Below are positions 2,069-31,440 of a DNA stretch of 32,500 nt, one piece after another. How positions within the stretch are numbered: the stretch's first letter is position 1; the number at the start of each line of letters is the position of its first letter. The stretch covers positions 1-32,500 of IMG/VR virus record IMGVR_UViG_3300046538_000295; one strand, written 5' to 3'. The stretch comes from a virus. Position numbers and translations under genes: made by a program. Below the pieces are notes generated by a model. That model ran no database searches, had not been told where the DNA came from, and saw only the letters and a program-made list of their open reading frames with translations.

Positions 2069-2728
2069 TTAGTTTAACCACGTTGCGAGCAAGCGTTCCA
2101 CATCTCGGATCATAGCCACTACGTCCTCTTCAGTGAACTCTTGATTTTTACCATGTGCTGCACTGTTTCTTACACCGGCAATGGCAGTGATTTGCTTATG
2201 TACGATTGAGTTGTAGTGCGATGCTTTCGCGAGGTCATCGTTCATCTTGCTAAGTTTTCCGGGCGGTAGACCATTTTGAACGCAAACATCTCTTAATGCG
2301 GTTTCAAGCACGACGCCCGCGATAACCGCAGCAGGAACGTGGTATCCAGCTTCCAAAAGCGCATCGGCTTGTTGAAGTTCATCGGTAAATACATCAGCCT
2401 GAACCAAGTTCCGAATTGTGGTAAAGTATCCGCCCTCAAAATCTTCTTTAGCAGCCAGAAACACGCTGAGTAATCGACTAAAGCGTATCGGCGAGTCTTC
2501 ATAAGGCTGTGGGTCCTCTGCTTCGACAAAGGTCGTGTAATGTTCTGAAGTCTTACCGCATGTAATTGAGAGCAGATGCCTAGCCTTAACGCACCATCCA
2601 AGTATTAGGTCTGACTCAATGTACAGATAAGAGCCAATGAATTCGCTATGCTTGGCGACTTTAGTAGCTAAGACTTCCTGAGCCTGCCGTTCCAGTTCAT
2701 TGAAGCGTAATTTTAGCTGTTGATTCAT
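2069..2728 (-). CDS. HEPN-like domain protein
   Basis: The product has about 219 residues. The start at 2728 (MNQQLKLRF) is chosen because GGGAG lies about 8 bases upstream; an ATG seven codons earlier lacks such a site. Near the C-terminus AGVRNSAAHG contains the Rx4H motif (R187, H192) typical of HEPN domains, preceded by the helical segment AAVIAGVVLETALRDV that such proteins usually show. HEPN proteins are often RNases of toxin-antitoxin or abortive-infection systems, although DUF4145-like members have no proven activity. The N-terminal half (about 120 residues) was not recognised. It sits in a leftward accessory group with an H-NS-like gene, a setting that suits a defence or moron gene. 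Confidence 0.7.
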   Translation of the reverse strand: MNQQLKLRFNELERQAQEVLATKVAKHSEFIGSYLYIESDLILGWCVKARHLLSITCGKTSEHYTTFVEAEDPQPYEDSPIRFSRLLSVFLAAKEDFEGGYFTTIRNLVQADVFTDELQQADALLEAGYHVPAAVIAGVVLETALRDVCVQNGLPPGKLSKMNDDLAKASHYNSIVHKQITAIAGVRNSAAHGKNQEFTEEDVVAMIRDVERLLATWLN

Positions 2729-2761
2729 GCCTGCTCCCAAGTTATGCAATTACCTGCCAGA

Positions 2762-3076
2762 TCAGGCCTGGACTTTTACCGTTTGCAGGTTTGCACCAGA
2801 TGCCAGGAGTTCCTTCACCCATTGCGGCGGACGACCACGGCCAGACCATTCCTGTGCTGCGTCTTTGGGATTGCGGTATTGCATAGCGACTTTGCCGGTC
2901 TGCTTGCGAACGCCGTTGCCGATCAGGTCTTTGAGTGGCATACCGAGTCGATGAGCGATTGCATAGATTTCGTTGCGCGCAGCTTCGACATCAGCCTTCG
3001 CCCGTTTCTTTTCTTCCGCTGCTATACGCGCCGACAAATCCCGCAGTTCGGTCAAGCTCAGTTTCGACAAATCCAT
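2762..3076 (-). CDS. H-NS family histone-like DNA-binding protein
   Basis: The product has 104 residues. The N-terminal half is a charged coiled-coil oligomerisation region (LTELRDLSARIAAEEKKRAK). The C-terminal DNA-binding domain carries the family signature WSGRGRPPQW at residues 77-86, which inserts into the minor groove of AT-rich DNA. The start is fixed by AGGAGG 8 bases upstream of the ATG. Length and motif match the short H-NS-like proteins of Burkholderiales. On a prophage it may silence accessory genes, replace host H-NS, or counter host silencing of phage promoters. It is the only recognised DNA-binding regulator in the window. Confidence 0.93.
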   Translation of the reverse strand: MDLSKLSLTELRDLSARIAAEEKKRAKADVEAARNEIYAIAHRLGMPLKDLIGNGVRKQTGKVAMQYRNPKDAAQEWSGRGRPPQWVKELLASGANLQTVKVQA

Positions 3077-3141
3077 TTACAACCTCCTAGTGAAATTAGC
3101 CGTAATGATGGCACACATTGGCCGGGACTTACAAAGTAACG

Positions 3142-3567
3142 TCACGTTCTAAACTTCGGCGGTGGTTTGCCTGCTGCTGCACGGTTCTTGATCAACATCT
3201 TTCGCTTGTAAGCCTTCCAACTTTCCCCCATTCGACCATCATTGCGACGTTTCCACTCACGTTCGGTGCGGTTCAGCATTGGCATCCATCTGGGATTAGG
3301 GCCAACACTGGCGAAATGCATGGGACTCGCTATCTCTGCTTTCCAGCGGTCGATGATGTCCTGAAAGGGTAGTGACAGTTGATCCCAATAGCCAGATTTC
3401 CAAGTTGCTTCAAACATCGCCAACAGCACCAATTCCCGTCTTCTTGCTTCCTGCTCTCGTTCCCAGAAACCTTCACTAAACAAGTCAGTTGGTAAGCCCA
3501 GGTCACGTAACCGCTTCATGTTCTGCATCCGCACGCTGCGCAATGCGCGTCTATCGCCTTCCTTCAT
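3142..3567 (-). CDS. Hypothetical basic protein, 141 aa
   Basis: The start is well supported by AGGAGG about 6 bases upstream of the ATG. The protein is rich in Arg, Lys and Trp (motifs RREL, EREWKRRN, ESWKAYKRKM) and ends KPPPKFRT. It has no membrane helix or recognised motif. It diverges from the terminase operon, with about 50 bases between the two starts, so both promoters share this gap. The position directly before the small terminase gene suggests a role in packaging or late control, but no family was recognised. Confidence 0.75.
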   Translation of the reverse strand: MKEGDRRALRSVRMQNMKRLRDLGLPTDLFSEGFWEREQEARRRELVLLAMFEATWKSGYWDQLSLPFQDIIDRWKAEIASPMHFASVGPNPRWMPMLNRTEREWKRRNDGRMGESWKAYKRKMLIKNRAAAGKPPPKFRT

Positions 3568-3618
3568 AGGTTCCTCCTAAATAGCTCGTGGCTCCAGGTG
3601 AGCCGATGAGGTATTTAC

Positions 3619-4020
3619 GTGGAAGACAGCAATAAACCGACCAATGCGGTCGCGGAGATCAGCGCCGAGACGTTGACCAAGCTTGCAAGCCGAGAAGAAG
3701 ACATTCGCCAGAGCGGATTGATCGACATCTTCGAACAGCACTTGCCAGCCATTCCCCAAGATTACGTGTTCAAGAACCGCGATCGCCAATTTGTCGCGGA
3801 CGCGCTCAATGTCGCGTTTGACCTGATTGGTGGCATCCCGCGACTTGCGCAGTACGGCCATGAGAACCCGGGCGAGTTCTACAAGCTTTACGCACGTCTA
3901 TTGCCAGAAGCCGAGAAGAAAGACTCAGGTCCGGCAGTCGTGCAGGTATTCCACAACGTACCCGCTTCCGCGCTCGACATGAGCGATGTGGTTGACATGG
4001 ATGATGACGAAGATGAGTAA
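3619..4020 (+). CDS. terS: Putative terminase small subunit
   Basis: The product has 133 residues and a GTG start. GAGG lies 7 bases upstream of it and no better ATG exists in frame. The protein is acidic, with a helical centre (IRQSGLIDIFEQHLPAIPQDY, RQFVADALNVAFDLI) and a very acidic tail (DMDDDEDE). The call rests mainly on position: it immediately precedes and overlaps the large terminase gene, as small terminases do. The small subunit would recognise the packaging site and load the large subunit. Sequence similarity to a TerS family was not itself recognised. Confidence 0.65.
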   Translation: MEDSNKPTNAVAEISAETLTKLASREEDIRQSGLIDIFEQHLPAIPQDYVFKNRDRQFVADALNVAFDLIGGIPRLAQYGHENPGEFYKLYARLLPEAEKKDSGPAVVQVFHNVPASALDMSDVVDMDDDEDE

Positions 4021-5473
4021 CGGCGTTCAAACCGTCCATCTCTCGTATGTTCCGCGTGATGCCTTTTTACCTTTCCACACCCGCAACAAGCGCAAAACGG
4101 TAATCGTCGCTCACCGACGTGCTGGCAAAACGTACAGCGTTATTCAGGACTTGGTTGCTCGTGCGCTCAACTTCCAGAAGAAGAACGGCAAGACGGGCAA
4201 GTTATTCAGCAAGCCCATTTTTGCCTACTTGTGTCCATACAAGGGTCAGGCCAAGAAGGTTGCTTGGGAATACCTGATCGAGTTCACGAAGGCCATACCT
4301 GGCATCAAGAAGAACGAGACTGAACTGTGGATTGAAATCCCAACGGTTACTGGCGACAAGGCCCGCATCTTCCTCGCCGGCGCTGACAATCCAGATAACC
4401 TGCGCGGTCTGTATTTCGATGGCGTCGTGCTTGATGAATACGGCGACATGAAACCAGAGGTCTACAGCAAGGTCATTCGTCCAGCACTTGCTGACCGTAA
4501 GGGCTGGGTCGTGTTCATGGGCACGCCGAAGGGCAAGAACGACTTCTACAAGCGCTGGCAGTTTGCCCAGCAAAAGCCCAACGAATACTTTTCCATCTGC
4601 CTAAAGGCCAGCGACAGCGGCATTCTGGACCCCCGCGAAATCGAAGACATGAAGTCGGAGATGGAAGTCGAGGAATGGGAGCAGGAGCTTGAATGTTCAT
4701 TCGATGCGGCCTTCCGTGGTTCTTTCTACGGCAAGCACATTGCAATCGCCCAATCCCAAAACAAGTTCCGCAGCCTGATCGATAAGCAATGCCCATACGG
4801 GTATGTGGTTGGTGAGCCGGTATCACTTGCGATGGACTTGGGCCGCGCCGATGCGGCCGTAATCTGGTTCTGGCAAGTGATCAATGGCGAAGTCCGTTTC
4901 TTCGACTACTGGGAACAAAGCGGGTTCGATGCCGAAGAGGTGTGCGACATGCTCGCGCTCAAGCCGTACACATACGAAGCTGTCTGGCTTCCGCATGATG
5001 CCAAGCACCGGACGTTTCAGACCAAGCAGTCTGTCATCGACACCTTCATGGCGCATGACCTACCAGCACGTATTGCACCGGACCCAGACGCGGGCCGCCG
5101 CATCATGCACGGCATTGACGCGGTACGAAAATTCCTGCGACTCGGCCACTTCGCCATCGATTCCGACAGGTGCCATCGCGGCATCGAGGCATTGAAAAAT
5201 TACTCAAGAAAATTCAACCGTACCTCCAACACGTTCGGCAGTGATGCTGACCACAACGAGTGGTCACATGGTGCCGATGCCTTCCGCTATGCGGTGCTGT
5301 CGATCAGTGACGACGACATTGGGCGTTCAATCGAGCGGGAGCGTGATCGCCAATACCGCATTGAAAATCCCAATCAAGTAAATACCAGACGCATGACCTT
5401 TGACGAGGCGTTAGCTGATCGTGACCGCCAGCTTGCAGCCCGATCAAACAATTTAAGTCGAGCATACGACTGA
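4013..5473 (+). CDS. terL: Terminase large subunit (packaging ATPase and nuclease)
   Basis: The product has 486 residues. ATG 4013 overlaps the stop of the preceding gene by 8 bases; the upstream in-frame ATGs at 3986-4004 lie inside that gene and are less likely. The ATPase domain shows Walker A AHRRAGKT (33-40), Walker B VVLDEYGD (138-145) and the coupling motif GTPKG (170-174). The RNase H-like nuclease domain has likely metal-binding aspartates in AMDLG (D275), PHDAK (D328) and HGADAFRY (D421). Length and order match complete phage large terminases. It cuts concatemeric DNA and drives it through the portal encoded next downstream. The gene looks intact. Confidence 0.95.
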   Translation: MSNGVQTVHLSYVPRDAFLPFHTRNKRKTVIVAHRRAGKTYSVIQDLVARALNFQKKNGKTGKLFSKPIFAYLCPYKGQAKKVAWEYLIEFTKAIPGIKKNETELWIEIPTVTGDKARIFLAGADNPDNLRGLYFDGVVLDEYGDMKPEVYSKVIRPALADRKGWVVFMGTPKGKNDFYKRWQFAQQKPNEYFSICLKASDSGILDPREIEDMKSEMEVEEWEQELECSFDAAFRGSFYGKHIAIAQSQNKFRSLIDKQCPYGYVVGEPVSLAMDLGRADAAVIWFWQVINGEVRFFDYWEQSGFDAEEVCDMLALKPYTYEAVWLPHDAKHRTFQTKQSVIDTFMAHDLPARIAPDPDAGRRIMHGIDAVRKFLRLGHFAIDSDRCHRGIEALKNYSRKFNRTSNTFGSDADHNEWSHGADAFRYAVLSISDDDIGRSIERERDRQYRIENPNQVNTRRMTFDEALADRDRQLAARSNNLSRAYD

Positions 5474-5507
5474 GACATTAAGTGCGCGCAAGACGCACGG
5501 AGACCAG

Positions 5508-7613
5508 ATGATCACCGATAACAACGAAAAAGAAGGGATGGATAGCGGCGTCAGCGAAGCCCCATTTGACCACGATCCAGTCCTTACGCAGTACCAAAAT
5601 GAAGCTGAGCAGGACAAGTGGCAAAAGGGATTGGAGGCATGCCGCAAGGAGCGCAAGAGCTTCAATGAGGAAGCGGTCAAATCGCTGAACCGGTACGGCG
5701 ATGTACGTAAGGATGGCTTCGCCAATTCCCGTATGTACAACATCTACTTCATGAACACGGACATCAAGCTTGCCGCCCTGTATGCGAAAACGCCGAAGCC
5801 CGACATCAAACGCCGCAATGACGACAGCCAGGATGACGTGTCGCGTGTCGCAGCCTTGATCTTACAGCGCAATCTCAGCTACGAAATGGACAACTGCAAT
5901 TTCGATGACACGTTCAAACAAGTGCTGTTTGATAACGTGGTAACGGGCATCGGCGTTAGCTGGTTGCGACTTGAACAGGAAGAACAGCATCAGCCTGACG
6001 TTATCGATCCGACGACCGGCATGTTGATGCCGCAGCAGCCGATGATCACGCATCAGGAAGCATGTACCGACTACGTGGCATGGGATGACTTCTTCTGGAG
6101 TCCCTGCAAGGTGTGGAGCATGTGCAGTTGGGTTGCTCGCCGTATCCCGATGACTAGGGAAGCCATCAAGGCGCGCTTCGGCGATAAGGTCGATGACGCC
6201 ATCATGAAGGAGATCGCGTATAGCACCAAGTCGGAATCGCAGGATTCCAGCAAGGCGAAACTGAATCCGCAAAACCAGACGGAGCCGACTGCTGACGTGT
6301 ACGAAATCTGGGACAAGCAGCGCGAGTTGATCTTTTGGGTTACCGAGTCGTCGCCATTGCCCTTGGATGTGCAGGAAGACACGACCAACTTTGAAGGCTT
6401 CTATCCGACACCGATGCCGCCACTTGGCCGCTTCACCACATCCAACACCATTCCGATCAGCGACTACCATCTGGTCAAAGGCAAGTATGCGGAACTGGAT
6501 GAGCTGAACCAGCGCAGTACGGCATTGACGAAAGCCATGGGCGTGCGATTCGTGTACGACGCCGCCAGCTCCGAAATCAAAGACCTGTACACGACCGTTG
6601 CGGAAAACACCGGCATCGCCGTCAAGAACTGGTCCCAGTTCGCGAGTGACAAAGGCGGCTTAGCTGGAAGCATCCAGTTCGCACCGCTTGATCAAGTCGC
6701 CAGTGCGTCAGCTATCGCGACGCAGCAGATCGAGCGCATCAAGGCCCAAATTTACGAAGTTGAAGGCATCAGCGACATCATGCGCGGTCAAGCCACCCCG
6801 TATGAAACGGCGACAGCTACAACGGCAAAAAGCCAGCAGTCGTTTGGCCGCTTCGCTGGTCGTCAGGCAGATGTCGCAACGTATGTGGCAAAGCTACTGC
6901 GCCTTAAAGCACACCTGATGTGCAAATTCCACGATCCAGCCCTATTGGCAAAACGCGCCATGCCGCTGTCGCCAGTCGATCAGCAATTCATCGGCCCGGC
7001 CCTGCGGCTCTTGCAAGACGAGCAGATGAGCAGCTTCCTATTGAGCGTCAGCGTGGACAGCTTGCAGCTCGATAACTGGAATACCGAGAAGGCAGAGCGT
7101 AGCGCATCGCTACAGGCGATTACTGGTCTGTTGGGTCAGATTCTTCCGGCTGTTCAGCATACGCCTGAAATCGCGCCGTTCGGCCTTGAGATGATCAAGT
7201 GGGCTGTCAGCGGCTTCAAAGGCGCACAGCCCGTTGAAGGCATGATCGATCAGACCTTACAGCAACTCATGCAGGCTAAACAGCCAGGCGCTCCAGGTCA
7301 GGGCGCACCGAAACCGCCATCGCCTGACGATGCCAAGGCACAAGCGATCACGCAAAAGGCGCAGATCGATTTGCAGATCTCGCAGATGCAAGAGCAGACC
7401 AAAATCCAAATCGCGCAGATGCAAGCCCAACTCAAGCAGCAGGAAATGCAACTGGCGCAAATGCAGAATGAGCGCGACAGCCAATTACGCGAAACCCAAG
7501 TGCAGCTTCGCCAAGGGGAATTGGCCGCGAAGGTCGCTCATGAACAAGCCGCAACGATCCTGACCCACTCGGCAGCGCTCATGCACTCCAAACCACCATT
7601 TACAGGTCAATAA
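5508..7613 (+). CDS. Portal protein
   Basis: The product has 701 residues. ATG 5508 follows GGAG at 5499-5502. The size, the place right after the large terminase, and the N-terminal pattern (KSLNRYGDVRKDGF, MYNIYFMNTDIKLAALYAK, then a DDFFWSPCK segment) fit the large portals of P22-like podoviruses. The last 120 residues are an extended Gln-rich coiled coil with repeated QMQ units (QISQMQEQTKIQIAQMQAQ), like the helical barrel of the P22 portal. It forms the dodecameric DNA gate at one capsid vertex and binds terminase and the adaptor protein. Confidence 0.9.
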   Translation: MITDNNEKEGMDSGVSEAPFDHDPVLTQYQNEAEQDKWQKGLEACRKERKSFNEEAVKSLNRYGDVRKDGFANSRMYNIYFMNTDIKLAALYAKTPKPDIKRRNDDSQDDVSRVAALILQRNLSYEMDNCNFDDTFKQVLFDNVVTGIGVSWLRLEQEEQHQPDVIDPTTGMLMPQQPMITHQEACTDYVAWDDFFWSPCKVWSMCSWVARRIPMTREAIKARFGDKVDDAIMKEIAYSTKSESQDSSKAKLNPQNQTEPTADVYEIWDKQRELIFWVTESSPLPLDVQEDTTNFEGFYPTPMPPLGRFTTSNTIPISDYHLVKGKYAELDELNQRSTALTKAMGVRFVYDAASSEIKDLYTTVAENTGIAVKNWSQFASDKGGLAGSIQFAPLDQVASASAIATQQIERIKAQIYEVEGISDIMRGQATPYETATATTAKSQQSFGRFAGRQADVATYVAKLLRLKAHLMCKFHDPALLAKRAMPLSPVDQQFIGPALRLLQDEQMSSFLLSVSVDSLQLDNWNTEKAERSASLQAITGLLGQILPAVQHTPEIAPFGLEMIKWAVSGFKGAQPVEGMIDQTLQQLMQAKQPGAPGQGAPKPPSPDDAKAQAITQKAQIDLQISQMQEQTKIQIAQMQAQLKQQEMQLAQMQNERDSQLRETQVQLRQGELAAKVAHEQAATILTHSAALMHSKPPFTGQ

Positions 7614-23336: not shown

Positions 23337-23533
23337 GCAGCGAAGTAATAGCAGCAGTTAAACATACCCTGGACGTTATCGCAGCGAGTGTGACCGTGCT
23401 TACAATCATCAAGGTCTTACCAGCGATCACGGCTGGGCTTGCGGCAATCTGGTATGTAATGGGGCTGTACGAGAAAATCGCTGGCCGCCCGTTCAGTGAG
23501 TCCAGGTTCGCTCGATTCCTGACAGGCAGATAG
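23333..23533 (+). CDS. Small membrane protein, holin partner or second holin
   Basis: The product has 66 residues. It starts at an ATGA overlap with the upstream candidate holin. One long hydrophobic region spans residues 14-45 (ASVTVLTIIKVLPAITAGLAAIWYV), probably one or two membrane passes, and the C-terminus is basic (SESRFARFLTGR). It could be a holin, antiholin or pinholin component. A strong terminator begins one base after its stop, so this is the last gene of the late transcript. Confidence 0.65.
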   Translation: MSSEVIAAVKHTLDVIAASVTVLTIIKVLPAITAGLAAIWYVMGLYEKIAGRPFSESRFARFLTGR

Positions 23534-23555
23534 AAAAGGCCCGCTGGGGCCTTTT
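23534..23555 (+). terminator. Bidirectional rho-independent terminator ending the late operon
   Basis: The perfect arms AAAAGGCCC (23534-23542) and GGGCCTTTT (23547-23555) enclose the loop GCTG, giving a T run on either strand. It separates the rightward late operon from the convergent leftward gene ending at 23558. Confidence 0.93.
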
Positions 23556-23557
23556 AC

Positions 23558-23851
23558 TTAGTTCCACGTAAGTTTGAAGAGCAGGAAGTCGCTGTCTTGA
23601 GTGAATTGGAACATCAGACCTTCGTATTGGGCAATGCGAGCTTTGGGCCAAGTCCTGTAAAGCTGATTGAGTGTGTAATGGGTGATGTCTTGTTGTTCGA
23701 GCCATCGCTTTAACTCTTCGATGTCCTGATATTTGTCTACCAGCCCTTGGAGACGACTTTCCTTGAGCTTGTTCGGTTCCTTGAGTACCTTGTCTACATT
23801 AAACTTTTGCGACATTGCTTGACGCCATGTACATGGAACGATTACCTTCAT
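23558..23851 (-). CDS. Hypothetical protein, 97 aa
   Basis: The start at 23851 (MKVIVPCTW) is preferred because GGAG lies 6 bases upstream; two earlier in-frame starts at 23863 and 23857 overlap that site. The protein is soluble and Lys/Leu-rich, with helical segments (NKLKESRLQGLVDKY, IEELKRWLEQQD). No family was recognised. It is read against the late genes and away from the structured non-coding stretch, so its promoter probably lies at about 23870-23920, where a TTAG/CTAA inverted repeat (23872-23883) could be an operator. A moron or late-phase control role is possible. Confidence 0.7.
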   Translation of the reverse strand: MKVIVPCTWRQAMSQKFNVDKVLKEPNKLKESRLQGLVDKYQDIEELKRWLEQQDITHYTLNQLYRTWPKARIAQYEGLMFQFTQDSDFLLFKLTWN

Positions 23852-24073
23852 TTGCATCTCCACAGTTATTGTTAGCGGACTAATAAGTTAACACAAGCAA
23901 TTGCATGTTCATAACATTTAGTTTGAGCATTATTTCAGGTTTGATTACCGCATCACACCTGCCAACATAATCGCTTCTTTCATTCAACCACCTGGGTTTG
24001 CAATAAGCGAAGCGCTGGGAGCTTGCGACCTTCTGGCTGTTGGTGTTTGGTTTTCTTCCAGGTGGCGAGCCGG

Positions 24074-24222
24074 GGAGCGATAGCGACGAGGCCGCTGGAA
24101 CGCAGTGACTTTCTGGGGTTTGAGAAGGAAATTGGTTTTCTCGAAAGCGACTGAAATGCCAGGTTACTGAGCGACAGCGAAGTTCGGCATTGAAGTCCCC
24201 TGACGCCTGAGCGACAGCGAAG
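24074..24222 (+). repeat. Repeated GAGCGAYAGCGA motif in hairpin loops
   Basis: CTGAGCGACAGCGAAG occurs exactly at 24167-24182 and 24207-24222, 40 bases apart. A variant, GGAGCGATAGCGACG, is at 24074-24088. Each sits in the loop of a different stem. The pentamer AGCGA occurs eight times between 24006 and 24220 on the plus strand. The pattern suits a repeated protein-binding loop or a sponge RNA. Confidence 0.7.
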
Positions 24223-24700
24223 ATGTCAGGTGACTTTGATTCAAGAAGAATTCCTCAAAAATTCTTGACGAATCAAGTCAGAGAAGTACCTAAAAGAAAA
24301 ACGAAATAGGGAATAACATCTGTCAGGTATTAACAGTGCTCGCCTGCTGCGTGCTTCGCTTGCATCAGGGGAGTACTCGTTGCAGCGTTGTTTGTTTCAC
24401 GCACAACGCCTTTCAACTCATACTCGCTCCACATAACACATCTGCAAAACATCTAAAATCAACAGTCACAATTATTCCTTAATCCTCCTCCCGTTTTGTT
24501 CGAAAGGTTTTGCCCAACCACATCCTCCTCTGCGAGTCAGCTCCTGCTGTTACCCGTTCGATGTTCTACCTGCAGTCTGCCAAGTTTCTGGTCTTACGCC
24601 GGGATACTCCGTGGTGTCCTAGGGATTTAGGTTTATTTTCCCCTCTTTGCCCAAGCCATCGACTTCCCTTGGGTGACTAAAACTTCAGTACGTCTGGCAG

Positions 24701-24733
24701 TCCCGTAGTTGGCTGCTCCCGTACATTGGCTAC
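24701..24733 (+). repeat. Imperfect tandem repeat, two units
   Basis: TCCCGTAGTTGGCTGC is followed directly by TCCCGTACATTGGCTAC. Both lie inside the candidate RNA region and add to the impression of modular structure. Confidence 0.6.
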
Positions 24734-24803
24734 TATCTCATGTGAAACAGTATTGATCAGCGTTGTGTGATCGTTTGGCAATGGGGAAGTTGGGTGACAA
24801 AAG

Positions 24804-24838
24804 AAAAACCCCACATGGGACGAGCACGTGGGGTTTTT
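24804..24838. terminator. Strong bidirectional rho-independent terminator
   Basis: The arms AAAAACCCCAC (24804-24814) and GTGGGGTTTTT (24828-24838) pair perfectly over 11 bases around a 13-base loop. No coding sequence ends nearby on the plus strand, so its natural customer is a non-coding transcript from the left. Confidence 0.92.
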
Positions 24839-25198
24839 GGGTACTATGCAGTGAGACTTCACTACACCTAGAAAACCTTAACCATCGCAACCTCGTCCGC
24901 TGCCTATACACCTATTTAGGAACCGGCGTCTAAACGCTGGAACACATCCATGGTACGCGAACGGTGGCGGAGTTCAAATTGTTCCTGTCGGATGCTCAAA
25001 AATGTCGACGTGCTGATGTGTGATCGCTTTCGCTGTTCAATCCAGTGGCAGCTAGTTAGATCACATTTTCGTGGTCATCTACGACTGCCAGATGTCAATC
25101 TGGCTCTGGAGCCCGCATAGGCTCTGGCTTTCCCATCGAGGAAATCGCTCTCCTGTACCAGTACACGCGAAATCACGGATTATCAGGTTTGCTCGCAG
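24839..25198. other. Gene-free stretch with further hairpins
   Basis: No credible gene is seen. Stems include AGTGA/TCACT near 24850-24864, TGTGATC (25019-25025) with GATCACA (25059-25065), TGGCAG (25046-25051) with CTGCCA (25085-25090), GCCAGAT (25087-25093) with ATCTGGC (25098-25104), and CTGGAGCC (25106-25113) with GGCTCTGG (25120-25127). The last uses two G-U pairs that favour the plus strand. It may be a second structured RNA or a leader of the gene at 25288. Confidence 0.4.
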
Positions 25199-25217
25199 TT
25201 ATCGGTTAAACCGATAA
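25199..25217. repeat. TTATCGGTT palindrome, copy 3
   Basis: The perfect arms TTATCGGTT and AACCGATAA surround one A. It is a variant of the TTGTCGGTT family, with compensating changes in both arms (G to A, C to T). Its centre lies 42 bases before the -10 box of the next gene, so it could be an operator or activator site. Confidence 0.8.
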
Positions 25218-25249
25218 TGCCAAGCGGAAATTCTTGCAACTTTCCAAGC

Positions 25250-25255
25250 TATAAT
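25250..25255 (+). promoter_or_regulatory. Promoter -10 box TATAAT for the 214-aa gene
   Basis: A perfect TATAAT lies 32 bases before ATG 25288. No good -35 hexamer occurs at the usual spacing (TTGCAA at 25234 is too close), so an activator may be needed, possibly at the palindrome 25199-25217. Transcription would begin near 25262. Confidence 0.55.
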
Positions 25256-25287
25256 ACAAGCAACATTGTTCCCCGACCCGAGCCCCC

Positions 25288-25932
25288 ATGACCGCAACAT
25301 CTGTAGCCAAAAAAGCAATTGGCGCATTCAACTTAGAAGCCGATTCAATCGACCAAGCCACTGATGAACTCATCGCGCGGCTTATCATGCAATACCGCCT
25401 AATACAGCCGTGGAAGTCGGGTGACGACTTCCTTGAAGAGATTTTTGAACCTCTTTTCGCGAGCACGCTGGAAGATCCGATACATCTCAACGTCAGTGGA
25501 AAGACCATGTATTCCGCACAGGCAAATCGCGGCTTTATGATACTGCTTGTGACAAGCTGTGCGCATTGTGTTGAGGCCTTGAAAGCAGATGAGGGGGGCA
25601 ATCAGATGAGAGCTTGGAATCAGATCGCCAGTGCCACGTACTATTTGGGAAAGTTAGAAGGGTTGAGTAAGGTCGAGCCTGCGATTGACCACATCATTGC
25701 GTCGCGTAGTGCTAAGGGTGCTAGCAAGCGCAGCGAGAAGTTCGCCCCGATCCGGGAGTTCGCGAGAGAGTTAGCCTCCCATCAGACGCATGAAACGAAG
25801 CGCAAGGCTGCTCTGCTCATTAAAAAGGCAGTCCTTGCTTTCGCTGACAAAAGCGAAGTCGAAATGTCGGAATACGAAGCCGAAAGGACCATCATCAAGT
25901 GGTTGGACGGCATGACGTTTGCCACCAAGTAA
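25288..25932 (+). CDS. Hypothetical protein of the accessory cassette, 214 aa
   Basis: The product is soluble and mainly helical, with a central hydrophobic stretch (NRGFMILLVTSCAHCVEAL) and a basic segment (SAKGASKRSEKFAPIREFARELASHQT). No family was recognised. The leader before ATG 25288 (CGACCCGAGCCCCC) has no Shine-Dalgarno sequence, unlike most genes here, although a perfect TATAAT box lies upstream. Translation may start in a non-canonical way or at a later codon. It is followed by paired palindromes and another unknown gene, and the pair is bounded by two copies of the TTRTCGGTT palindrome. A regulatory, defence or lysogenic-conversion role is possible but unproven. Confidence 0.65.
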   Translation: MTATSVAKKAIGAFNLEADSIDQATDELIARLIMQYRLIQPWKSGDDFLEEIFEPLFASTLEDPIHLNVSGKTMYSAQANRGFMILLVTSCAHCVEALKADEGGNQMRAWNQIASATYYLGKLEGLSKVEPAIDHIIASRSAKGASKRSEKFAPIREFARELASHQTHETKRKAALLIKKAVLAFADKSEVEMSEYEAERTIIKWLDGMTFATK

Positions 25933-25936
25933 GGTA

Positions 25937-25969
25937 GGTTTGGTACCAAACCGCCCACCTTTGGTACCA
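25937..25969. promoter_or_regulatory. Paired TTTGGTACCA palindromes, likely operator
   Basis: GGTTTGGTACCAAACC (25937-25952) is a perfect 16-bp palindrome. The decamer TTTGGTACCA recurs at 25960-25969, exactly 21 bp from its first copy at 25939, which puts both on the same DNA face two turns apart. The second lies just before a possible -10 (TAGTAT, 25976-25981) of the 298-aa gene, in the place of a -35 box. This is a typical layout for a cooperative dimeric regulator. Confidence 0.6.
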
Positions 25970-25982
25970 CGTTCATAGTATC

Positions 25983-26057
25983 TAATTCGCCCTTAAATTA
26001 AAGTTCAGTTATCCAATCAAGCGATTGGAATCAAACGAACTTAGATAGGGCGAATTA
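25983..26057 (+). promoter_or_regulatory. Nested hairpin sequestering the start of the 298-aa gene
   Basis: Three concentric perfect stems are seen: TAATTCGCCCT (25983-25993) with AGGGCGAATTA (26047-26057), AAGTTC (26001-26006) with GAACTT (26037-26042), and CCAATC (26013-26018) with GATTGG (26023-26028) around AAGC. The outer stem contains the only Shine-Dalgarno-like AGGG and reaches the A of the ATG, so in mRNA it would block ribosome entry. As DNA the 11-bp arms could also be an operator. Confidence 0.7.
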
Positions 26058-26953
26058 TGATTATCAACAACAGTCTGCAATCCCAACCGAACAATTCCAA
26101 CTTTCCCGTTGCAAATGCTAAAGTCGGAAATAAAGTGCCGAGTTATCCCATCGCTGTTTATGTAAATGGCGGTGCCGAAAAAAGTGACTTTGAGAAGGCA
26201 TTGGACGAAATCGAAATTGCGGGTGATGCGTTCGAGCGAAACAGCCGTAATGCTGCAATTTCCGGTCTCGCTAAAATCTTGGGCATTTACACCAAGTTTT
26301 TCGCGAATGCCACCAAAAGCGAAATTACTAGTTTGAAGAGTAAGTTGAAAGAGAGATGTGGCCTTGAGGAAAATAAGAAGACATCTGAATTTCACCTGCT
26401 GTCGCGGATTTATCGTCGCAATGATACTAAACAGGCTTCTGGTGACGCTAAAATCCTGAAACAAGCGATTTCTGCTGAAAAAGACGAAAACAGCTTTGCC
26501 GAATGGGTCGCGTCGAAAGGTGGTCTGGACGCGATCAAGAAGGGCGTGACCGATCAGCAAAAACAACAAAGGGCAGCGCAGCCTCCTAAGAAACCTAACC
26601 CAAAAGACTTGTGGGAGCGGGCGGCGAACGCTATCAAAGCTCTCGTCCATAATGGGCAGATCACAGAAACTTTTACCTTTGAGAAGAAAGAGTGGCCTGA
26701 TTTGTTCAAAAAATTGCGGCCAGACTTCAACAACACTTCGCGATTGGTAATTGTGAACCATACGGATGACGACCTGCATTTTCACATTTTGGAAAGTTTC
26801 CAGCCATTTGGTCCGGACTACGTACCTAAACACCCAGTCAACGTAGACGGCACTAGCACCAGTACATGGCCCGCCTGGATGATTGGTACCGAACCTGAAG
26901 CTCCTGAAGAGAGCAACGATGATTCGGGCAGTGTGAAAGAAACGGTGGTCTAA
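26057..26953 (+). CDS. Hypothetical protein under leader-hairpin control, 298 aa
   Basis: The N-terminal 40 residues are Asn/Ser-rich and probably disordered. Residues 40-175 are charged and helical (EKALDEIEIAGDAFERNSRN, GIYTKFFANATKSEI, FAEWVASKGGLDAIKKG). A Lys/Pro linker follows (AAQPPKKPNPKD), then a folded C-terminal part with strands (RLVIVNHTDDDLHFHILESF) and an acidic tail. No family was recognised. A 367-residue frame exists on the opposite strand but has unlikely composition. The start lies inside a strong nested hairpin, which predicts regulated translation. The protein may bind nucleic acid through the basic centre, but this is inference. Confidence 0.7.
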   Translation: MIINNSLQSQPNNSNFPVANAKVGNKVPSYPIAVYVNGGAEKSDFEKALDEIEIAGDAFERNSRNAAISGLAKILGIYTKFFANATKSEITSLKSKLKERCGLEENKKTSEFHLLSRIYRRNDTKQASGDAKILKQAISAEKDENSFAEWVASKGGLDAIKKGVTDQQKQQRAAQPPKKPNPKDLWERAANAIKALVHNGQITETFTFEKKEWPDLFKKLRPDFNNTSRLVIVNHTDDDLHFHILESFQPFGPDYVPKHPVNVDGTSTSTWPAWMIGTEPEAPEESNDDSGSVKETVV

Positions 26954-26965
26954 GGTCACGAGTGA

Positions 26966-26988
26966 GATTGTCGGTTGAGCCGACAATC
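26966..26988. repeat. TTGTCGGTT palindrome, copy 4
   Basis: The arms GATTGTCGG and CCGACAATC are perfect around TTGAG. Aligned with the 19-bp family, one inner pair is T-G. It follows the stop of the 298-aa gene by 13 bases and lies about 16 bases before a TATTAT box (27005-27010). No T run follows, so it is not a standard terminator. Confidence 0.8.
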
Positions 26989-27027
26989 TAGCCGCCCAAA
27001 CAAGTATTATCCCGTGGAATAGGTGTG

Positions 27028-27357
27028 ATGAATAACAAACTGCAATACAAGTGTTCGCCCGATTACGGTGAAGGAGTACGTTTCCAACACGAATGGAAAC
27101 TCGATCGCGCATACCTTGACGACATCGCGACGCTGCAAGAAATGGTCGCTTGGTGTTACCAGAATTGGGACGATGATCCGAGCGGCGAAAATGAATGGGA
27201 GTACGAGTTGAGGGCCGAAATTAACTGTTTGTATGTTGGGAAAATGGCTTCTTTGTCTTGGATTACTCTGGAGTCGCCGAAACGATTTTATCTTGGCACC
27301 AATGATGAAGCGTGGGCTGCTTTGTTCAAGCTGACGTGGTCTGACGCAGTCGAGTAA
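27028..27357 (+). CDS. Hypothetical acidic protein, 109 aa
   Basis: The start is taken at ATG 27028; the GTG one codon earlier is also possible. AGG lies close upstream. The protein is acidic and Trp/Tyr-rich (MVAWCYQNWDDDPSGENEWEYEL), soluble, and has no recognised motif. It follows the 298-aa gene after about 70 bases, with a palindrome and possible TATTAT box between, so it may have its own promoter. A strong terminator follows its stop. It is the last gene of the unknown cassette. Confidence 0.65.
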   Translation: MNNKLQYKCSPDYGEGVRFQHEWKLDRAYLDDIATLQEMVAWCYQNWDDDPSGENEWEYELRAEINCLYVGKMASLSWITLESPKRFYLGTNDEAWAALFKLTWSDAVE

Positions 27358-27376
27358 ATGGGAGCGGAAGTAAACA

Positions 27377-27412
27377 AAAATCCCCTAACGCGGTAAAACG
27401 TTAGGGGATTTT
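27377..27412. terminator. Strong bidirectional terminator
   Basis: A perfect 14-bp stem AAAATCCCCTAACG (27377-27390) and CGTTAGGGGATTTT (27399-27412) encloses CGGTAAAA. It separates the rightward 109-aa gene from the leftward histidine kinase and probably marks the edge between the phage-linked cassette and chromosomal-type genes. Confidence 0.95.
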
Positions 27413-27476
27413 GTACAACGGGAGATACGGCTATGACAAAACCGTGCAAGTATTTATAAAATTGGCCCCACGTATG

Positions 27477-28607
27477 TTATCCGTTGCGAGGAAATGTGAC
27501 TGAAAATACTGTTCCTTCGGCTTCGGAGGACGTAACGCTGATTGTTCCATTGTGGGCGGCGACTGTTTCTTGCGCTATGAACAATCCCAGGCCCAAGCTA
27601 GTTCTGGGCCGCCCTTCTTCTTCGATGTGGTGGTCTAGTTGAACCAATGGCTGGAAGATGGTTTTAAACGATTCTGGTGGGATAACCGGCCCCCAATTAG
27701 TTACGTTGATGGTGATCGCGTCTTCGCTCCCAACTGCATCCAGTTTCACGTCCTTACCGGCAGAGCCGTACTGTGCGGCATTGATTAAAAGGTTAGTCAC
27801 CAATTGCCGCAGACGAGTACCATCGAATGCCCCTGAAAGGTTACCGCTGGGATGAAAGACAATTGTGTTGTTCGGGTACATGGCACGCGCATCAGCCACC
27901 GCAGCTTTACATACCTCTAGGGTATCGAGATTGACACGCACGATCGGCATGCCCGCTCCCAGTTGCAATCTTGCAAAACCCAAAAGGTCAGTCACCATCG
28001 CGCTCATCAGTATTGCATTGCGCTTCGTCTTTTGCGCGAGGGCAACCACTTGCTCTTCGGACACTACCGTCCGCATAAGAAGGTCTCCGACTAGCGAAAT
28101 GTTGGCGAGAGGTGCCCGTAAATCGTGCCCAAGCACCGCCAGGAACATGTCCCGCGTCCGGTCTGCTCTTGCAGAATACGTCACTATCGATTCCGCGAGC
28201 GCCTGATCAATTGCCTCGTTAAACCGAATCATTTCATGAATCGTCGTTTCCGACATTTGATGAACGGAGGGCAACCAGCGGCGCAACACGGTCGCCCTAA
28301 GGGCGCGAAATTCCGAACTGAGCTGAAGCAATGAAAAATTGCTTTCTTGCCGTAGTCGACCATGAGTTGCCGCTGGGCTTTCCTTTTCGTGAGTGTCTTC
28401 CCCTTCACCTTGAGACTTGTCGTACTGCTGTTGTCTACTTTGGTGCGTCTCGATGTCGGTAGCAATAGCGCAAAGTATGGCCTCGGCATGATCCGTCAAT
28501 GCCAAGTTAGACATCGCGCTTTCCGGTGGGGCTGTTTTTTTAGCGAAAGCCGTCCATTCGGCGAGGATCACGGTCATGTCAGACCGTATGAAGGCTGAGA
28601 GGCTCAT
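27477..28607 (-). CDS. Soluble sensor histidine kinase
   Basis: The product has 376 residues from the start at 28607 (MSLSAFIRSD), which follows AAGGA by 5 bases; an earlier start at 28634 lacks a good site. The N-terminal 100 residues resemble an RsbRD-type sensory region and there is no membrane helix. The kinase core has the phospho-acceptor H161 in LGHDLRAPL, N276 in NLLINAAQ and the G2 box GLGL (339-342). No response regulator gene lies beside it. Its 3' end is echoed by a decayed copy near 31348-31440. It may feed a stress or light response, judging by the domain layout only. Confidence 0.88.
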   Translation of the reverse strand: MSLSAFIRSDMTVILAEWTAFAKKTAPPESAMSNLALTDHAEAILCAIATDIETHQSRQQQYDKSQGEGEDTHEKESPAATHGRLRQESNFSLLQLSSEFRALRATVLRRWLPSVHQMSETTIHEMIRFNEAIDQALAESIVTYSARADRTRDMFLAVLGHDLRAPLANISLVGDLLMRTVVSEEQVVALAQKTKRNAILMSAMVTDLLGFARLQLGAGMPIVRVNLDTLEVCKAAVADARAMYPNNTIVFHPSGNLSGAFDGTRLRQLVTNLLINAAQYGSAGKDVKLDAVGSEDAITINVTNWGPVIPPESFKTIFQPLVQLDHHIEEEGRPRTSLGLGLFIAQETVAAHNGTISVTSSEAEGTVFSVTFPRNG

Positions 28608-28746
28608 GAAATTCCTTCGCAGAAAAAGTAGCATTCATGTTCAGCAGCTTGCGAAGAAATCAGCAAAGCATGAGGTCAGTGTATCCTGACTTGAGTTGCC
28701 ATGCTCCTGGACCAACGAATTTGCTCTGGGAAGGCATCTCACATGA

Positions 28747-28850
28747 TCGCCTTTGGGTTACCTAAGGCGACTTGCATGCGCCAGCATTTCGAGTCGCCCC
28801 CAGTACAGCTATTGTTACGAGCATAGGGGGCCTTCCCCCGCAACTGCGGG
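28747..28850 (-). promoter_or_regulatory. Hairpin-rich leader region upstream of the kinase gene
   Basis: TCGCCTT (28747-28753) can pair AAGGCGA (28764-28770), while GGCGACT (28766-28772) can instead pair AGTCGCC (28792-28798), so the two stems exclude each other. Further right are GGGGG/CCCCC (28826-28839) and CCCGC/GCGGG (28837-28850). Whether any belongs to the leftward kinase transcript is unknown. Confidence 0.3.
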
Positions 28851-31116: not shown

Positions 31117-31350
31117 ATGCCAAGAGGAGCCAGCCCGAAGCGCGAGCGAGAGTACAAAATGCTCGAGCGCAAGTTCAAGAAGGAAGGACGTTATTCCGGA
31201 CGCGAGGAGGAAGTTGCGGCCCGTATTGTGAACAAGCAGCGCGCCGAATCCGGCGAAACCAAGTATCGTCATAAGCCACCACGCCGTACTGCATCAAGGC
31301 GCAAGAGCAGAGGTACGCGAGCAGCAACACGTCGCAGTAGGGCAGCCTGA
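31117..31350 (+). CDS. Small basic conserved protein, plasmid-stabilisation-like annotation
   Basis: The product has 77 residues. GGAAGGAAG precedes ATG 31117. It begins MPRGASPKREREYKMLERKF and continues with REEEVAARIVNKQRAE, a pattern I know from a widespread small proteobacterial protein often labelled plasmid stabilisation protein without proof. The tail is Arg/Lys/Ser-rich (RRTASRRKSRGTRAATRRS), like a nucleic-acid binding extension. It lies between two kinase remnants. Confidence 0.7.
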   Translation: MPRGASPKREREYKMLERKFKKEGRYSGREEEVAARIVNKQRAESGETKYRHKPPRRTASRRKSRGTRAATRRSRAA

Positions 31351-31440
31351 CTGAAAACACTGCTCCCTAGGCTTCGGAGGACGTTACGTTGATAGTCTCG
31401 CGTCTCTTTGCGTAATGAACAAGTTAGGTTCCGGTTTCCT
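31341..31440 (-). pseudogene. Decayed 3' end of a second histidine kinase gene
   Basis: From 31348 the sequence follows the 3' end of the intact kinase gene at a constant offset of 3851 bases (27497-27546 aligns with 31348-31397), including the identical 15-mer GGCTTCGGAGGACGT. Read leftward it gives TINVTSSEA, a TAG stop, then GAVFSVRLP, against TISVTSSEAEGTVFSVTFP in the intact gene. A short gap follows, then a weaker match around ATGAACAA. It is a broken paralogue, not an att repeat by itself. Confidence 0.7.

Follow-up and report, generated by a model that had tools for sequence, protein, structure and literature searches.

The question raised by this locus is what a deep hairpin lying across the Shine-Dalgarno (SD) sequence and start codon of a phage gene might do for that gene. 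The window, by which we mean the whole 32.5-kb stretch of DNA that was analysed, is a virus record with phage structural genes, and its host is probably a member of the Oxalobacteraceae, to judge from the histidine kinase gene (27477-28634), which shares 70-75% identity with genes of Duganella and Massilia. The hairpin occupies positions 25983-26057 of the plus strand, on which all features given below for the cassette also lie. It begins 50 nt past the stop codon of ORF1 (25288-25932, 214 aa), the upstream gene of a small cassette, and ends at the start of ORF2 (26057-26953, 298 aa), the gene that it is a candidate to control. Neither ORF1 nor ORF2 has a significant match in Pfam, PHROGs or NCBIfam, and an AlphaFold2 prediction for ORF2 alone, with a pLDDT of 41, was not used. 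Together with a 110-aa ORF, the two genes are bracketed by terminator-like hairpins at 24804-24838 and 27377-27412.

The sequence-only reading of this region had described nested stems of 11, 6 and 6 bp without mismatch. The outer stem, formed by a 5' or anti-SD arm at 25983-25993 (TAATTCGCCCT) and a 3' arm at 26047-26057 (AGGGCGAATTA), does comprise 11 bp with zero mismatch, and the middle stem pairs AAGTTC (26001-26006) with GAACTT (26037-26042), but the apical stem at 26012-26029, in which TCCAATC (26012-26018) faces GATTGGA (26023-26029) across an AAGC loop, has 7 bp rather than 6. As had been claimed, AGGG (26047-26050), 6 nt ahead of the ATG, and the A of this ATG (26057-26059) can be read directly within the outer stem. 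RNAfold joins all the stems into a single continuous hairpin, with additional predicted 3-bp helices between AUU 25997-25999 and GAU 26044-26046, and between GUU 26008-26010 and AAC 26034-26036. The predicted pairing of the SD in the 75-nt leader is about 0.99, both here and in the homologous locus described below, supporting the proposed burial of the SD and placing the hairpin, as modelled, among leaders in which the SD and start codon are paired in a stable fold.

The minimum free energy (MFE) of the 75-nt hairpin is -30.0 kcal/mol, compared with -9.3 on average for 3000 shuffled sequences, 0 of which matched it (z -8.0); for a 106-nt segment containing it the value is -32.3 kcal/mol (z -6.4; 0 of 200 shuffles). 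The earlier assertion that such order is rare by chance thus stands against shuffled sequence, but not in terms of raw MFE, since 42 of the 6485 75-nt windows along the whole stretch are equally stable. Three places in the 32.5 kb, this hairpin included, have perfect inverted repeats of 11 bp whose arms are separated by no more than 70 nt, and the other two are the terminator-like hairpins that bracket the cassette. The candidate hairpin was not itself found by the terminator scan, and its 3' arm is followed by ATG ATTATC with no U-run, so that we set aside its interpretation as an intrinsic terminator. The complementary strand also folds (-30.5 and -21.5 kcal/mol); energy therefore cannot pick the strand, and the choice of the RNA strand rests on the gene start. 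With the raw MFE unexceptional, the case for the hairpin is carried by its position and its conservation.

A search of 393 genomes of the host family for homologues of ORF2 recovered one diverged copy, in genome G173 (E 5e-40). Its locus, L018, contains the matching gene pair, with ORF1 at 4615-5274 (41% identity) and ORF2 at 5411-6460 (38% identity), as well as an integrase resembling that of the window (85% at the protein level). The two ORF2 proteins align from Met1, which supports the assigned start codon. Between the integrase and ORF1 of L018 lies a minus-strand gene (2639-4030) for a 463-aa protein that looks polymerase-like by eye (DYDIQACAP and HDGW motifs) and has no match in Pfam or PHROGs and no confident one in NCBIfam.

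At the same intergenic position L018 has a hairpin (5337-5411; z -5.6, 0 of 3000 shuffles), with its SD (AAGGA) and start region within the outer stem, the arms of which (TTCCTTTTAATT and AATTAAAAGGAA) correspond to those of the window. The outer stem has been rewritten (UUCCUUUUAAUU/AAUUAAAAGGAA in L018 versus UAAUUCGCCCU/AGGGCGAAUUA in the window) and nevertheless pairs fully. Hand alignment guided by the structure shows four pairs of the outer stem with both sides changed: two from C-G to U-A beside the SD arm, one from G-C to C-G, and a last one again from C-G to U-A. In the apical stem one pair is changed on both sides, from A-U to G-C, and two U-A pairs have become U-G. By contrast with these arms, blastn matches to L018 a conserved core at 25995-26036, comprising AAATTAAAGTTCAGTTATCC, the apical stem-loop and GGAATCAAAC, in which AATTAAAGTTCAGTTATCC is identical at 19 positions; the aligned segment, 25990-26039 (80%, E 4e-6), is the sole non-coding DNA of the window that aligns to L018.

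When the letters identical in the window and L018 were held fixed and only the differing letters were permuted, an equally stable fold arose in 1 of 5000 permutations for L018 and in 0 of 5000 for the window. A column-wise count of paired changes in a MAFFT alignment found 2 double changes, a number reached by 136 of 500 shuffles; this count is powerless because the alignment has two rows only and MAFFT shifts the outer arm by one. Loss of complementarity in homologues had been named beforehand as an observation that would speak against the hairpin, and the sole diverged homologue has kept its complementarity with changed bases. The comparison, which covers two independent sequences, thus points to a structure conserved with compensating changes between diverged homologues, and the same fold built from a different stem sequence makes the hairpin very probably a real on/off switch.

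These results also bear on two readings in which the hairpin has no role in the translation of ORF2. The first, that it arose by chance or is functionless sequence inherited from a recent common ancestor, can draw on the equally stable windows and on the number of independent loci being two, but we regard it as highly improbable in view of the permutation results and of the non-coding surroundings of the same age, which are not alignable. The second supposes a DNA-level element, such as a dyad operator or a single-strand hairpin used in replication or recombination, or else an RNase III site, with the overlap with the SD being incidental. Both strands do fold equally well, the cassette is flanked by palindromes, and integrases are near in both loci; however, a duplex operator would be expected to keep the sequence of its arms, whereas the outer arms have changed with their complementarity kept, and the overlap with the SD and start recurs in the window and L018. 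Nor are integron attC-like boxes of the GTTRRRY/RYYYAAC type common to both loci by eye, and we rejected an attC identity; a DNA-level explanation as a whole appears very unlikely to us.

Palindromes in and around the cassette were recorded as observations in their own right. Hairpin 1 (TTGGTACCAAA type, 25940-25969), 3' of the ORF1 stop, has no U-tail, and in L018 a hairpin of other sequence takes the same place; the surrounding region, 25937-25970, reads as a GGTTTGGTACCAAACC palindrome followed by a second TTTGGTACCA, and is a possible repressor operator or hairpin. Hairpin 3 (AGATTGTCGGTTGAGCCGACAATCT, 26964-26990) lies 3' of ORF2, again with an L018 hairpin in the same place (~6485-6510). 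Palindromes of the TTATCGGTTTAACCGATAA type are found before ORF1 (25197-25216) and after ORF2 (26965-26990) in the window and after ORF2 in L018, at that same position, and may represent cassette ends or 3' stabilising hairpins. Upstream of the cassette, positions 23900-25250 form a region of ~1.3 kb with few ORFs, in which the motif CTGAGCGACAGCGAAG is repeated at 24167 and 24207, with a variant at 24073, in hairpin-like sequence that has no Rfam match. A 46-bp piece of the histidine kinase gene, at its 3' end (27497-27542), recurs with 87% identity at 31348-31393, beside the integrase gene, as either the remnant of a second kinase copy or the trace of an attachment site.

Other candidate relatives and explanations of the conserved sequence were sought and set aside. 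The same cassette is present in a second phage record, IMGVR_UViG_3300047320_000168 (L004), with zero mismatches between 24900 and 28000, and this identity deprives it of evolutionary information and makes it useless for covariation. The 5.5-kb module at 23340-28850 is nearly 100% identical in L004/L005, with flanks that diverge by as much as ~15% in bins of 250 bp, a distribution suggesting that the module was exchanged recently between phages. A search of viral contigs with the outer-arm pattern gave two loci (L015, L016) of dissimilar sequence that lack the core and look like chance matches, and the core pattern matched once (L029), inside a DNA polymerase gene, which we also attribute to chance. 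The 15-mer AAAGTTCAGTTATCC led to 28 new loci, none matching the RNA model, and this model recovered G173 alone from 245 family-level genomes. Distant blastn searches yielded two weak matches in phages (E 0.2), none in plasmids, and nothing useful; ORF2 itself was found in none of the phage and plasmid records. Conservation of the core through an upstream peptide was rejected by inspection, as in the window the frame shared with L018 has a TAA directly before ATT AAA GTT and lacks a start codon. The sequence AATTCGCCCTT...AAGGGCGAATT resembles the flanks of TA-cloning vectors, but it occurs in two records inside phage DNA and its right arm is TAGGGCGAATT, so a cloning artefact was rejected.

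If the hairpin acts on translation, the point at which transcription starts becomes decisive. With RNA beginning at 25988 the predicted pairing of the SD is 0.99; from 25992 onwards it drops to about 0.6 (0.66 at 25992), in silico confirmation of the earlier proposal that burial depends on the start site and requires an intact 5' arm. The position of the 5' end would thus decide between a regulated leader and mere insulation from read-through. The sequence-only reading had offered TAGTAT (25976-25981) as the -10 box of a local promoter; these letters are present, but the promoter scan recognised no sigma-70-like pair there or elsewhere between ORF1 and ORF2. Judging from the sequence, co-transcription with ORF1 is no less likely than a local promoter, and is made plausible by a TATAAT at 25250-25255, upstream of ORF1, a possible -10 of a cassette promoter.

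In the insulation reading, long transcripts from ORF1 or from host promoters would fold and be silent for ORF2, and transcripts starting inside the 5' arm would escape, with no need for any ligand or factor. This is the principle of fold-back inhibition in the transposase mRNAs of IS10 and IS50, in which RNA initiated upstream folds over the SD. The drop in pairing past 25992 is what such a mechanism would need, and some of the AlpA-type relatives considered below (L033, L035, L036, L045) carry TCTAAACT immediately ahead of the anti-SD arm; this is a possible -10, and used as such it would start the RNA inside the arm. The window has TATCTAATTC at the place of this box. The present hairpin resembles the IS10/IS50 case in that RNA begun upstream would cover the SD of a mobile-element gene by folding back; it differs in its conserved internal core, in yielding no internal promoter on scanning, and in preceding a gene that encodes no transposase. 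Only a weak TATCTAAT-like box, with no sigma-70-like pair, lies at the edge of the arm, no promoter was recognised in the window, and insulation leaves the near-identical core in the loops and inner stems unexplained. Our search of the literature on fold-back inhibition and AlpA leaders found nothing direct. We judge the insulation reading to be unlikely, albeit deserving of consideration.

Temperature had been listed among the possible triggers, along with a ligand, an sRNA or a protein. Burial of the SD in a hairpin is the usual layout of RNA thermometers, in which warmth melts the stem and frees the SD, and to this extent the hairpin is like them. From this class (described, for example, in PMC10639063) it differs in stability, being predicted as too stable to melt: modelled SD pairing up to 60 C remains above 0.98 for the window hairpin and above 0.91 for that of L018, so that in the model the SD helix melts within the physiological range in neither and simple thermal melting is unlikely. 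The outer stem is moreover fully matched and lacks the weak pairs that are usual close to the SD, and thermal control would leave the conservation of the core unexplained; a thermometer is accordingly an extremely improbable reading of this locus.

The closest likeness is to translational operators and riboswitches that sequester the SD, with which the hairpin shares a perfect stem that pairs the SD together with the start of the gene that follows, and a conserved core of the kind that a ligand or protein could contact. It is unlike them in matching no Rfam family and in being represented by two independent examples. At the Rfam gathering score there were 0 matches in the whole window, and a relaxed search of 23850-26300, up to E 5, returned nothing relevant. 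The hairpin is hence best filed as an undescribed leader of an already known kind, the SD-sequestering regulators.

A wider pattern may exist around ORF1. A profile search found weak ORF1 relatives in 16 of 324 family-level genomes, several of the distant ones adjoining a P4-type integrase and then an AlpA-like gene. This arrangement recalls the int-alpA integration zone of P4 and PICI satellites (PMC10111431), inasmuch as the distant relatives of ORF1 are flanked by P4-type integrase and AlpA-like genes, and several have a paired SD; the window cassette differs in having ORF2 in place of AlpA and in lying in a record with phage structural genes. The leader of P4 vis has no comparably deep hairpin. 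In the ORF1-relative loci the SD of the next gene has a median pairing of 0.79, versus 0.54 in 58 control genes (Mann-Whitney p 0.001 with the window and L018, 0.0026 without both), and a comparison with shuffled leaders at 11 loci, leaving out the window, L018 and L045, gave Fisher p values of 0.003 (SD pairing) and 0.0002 (MFE); all these p values are optimistic because the idea arose from viewing some of the loci. The clearest case among these loci, L048, was found after the idea: an unrelated three-tier hairpin, with an outer stem TTTCTTGAGTTT/AAACTCAAGGAAA and middle and apical stems, buries AAGGA (p 0.003 for SD pairing and MFE). At L052, also found later, the pattern is absent (p 0.65), and L049 lacks a recognisable SD.

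Several shared motifs were noted in these leaders. TCTAAACT or a close variant stands directly 5' of the anti-SD segment in the AlpA-like leaders L033, L034, L035, L036, L039 and L045, as a possible -10 box or operator, and TTCAGT recurs in the leaders of the window, L018, L031, L038 and L046. Weak relatives of ORF2 were found in four other loci, and such relatives lack the hairpin. In L025-L028, weak ORF2 relatives lie near small XerC-like recombinases (188-212 aa), and two of these loci also have AAA clamp-loader-like genes; they form an uncharacterised family of integrative elements. The broader proposition is that ORF1-family genes beside integrases mark a class of integrative elements whose following gene, an AlpA-like regulator or ORF2, is silenced by a hairpin burying its SD, with ORF1 or the controlled product as the RNA-binding switch. 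It is put forward very tentatively, and we consider it quite unlikely to hold in full.

For the hairpin itself, the reading that we favour, and hold to be probably correct, is that of a conserved cis-acting mRNA leader of a two-gene phage and integrative-element cassette, which hides the SD of ORF2 and has a core that is read by a factor. In transcripts starting upstream of ~25990, including those reading through from ORF1, the outer stem would pair the SD and start of ORF2 and thereby keep its translation low. The core (AAAGUUCAGUUAUCC, the apical stem-loop and GGRAUYAAAC) would probably be the surface contacted by a trans-acting factor; the simplest candidate is a protein encoded by the element, the product of ORF1 or ORF2, which would stabilise or open the hairpin. 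The leader RNA of this locus would be compact and previously undescribed, with a conserved core, and its repression and trigger are accessible to simple reporters. Should the link to the integrase-adjacent ORF1 family hold, the implication would be that genes governing the retention or departure of such elements are controlled at the level of translation.
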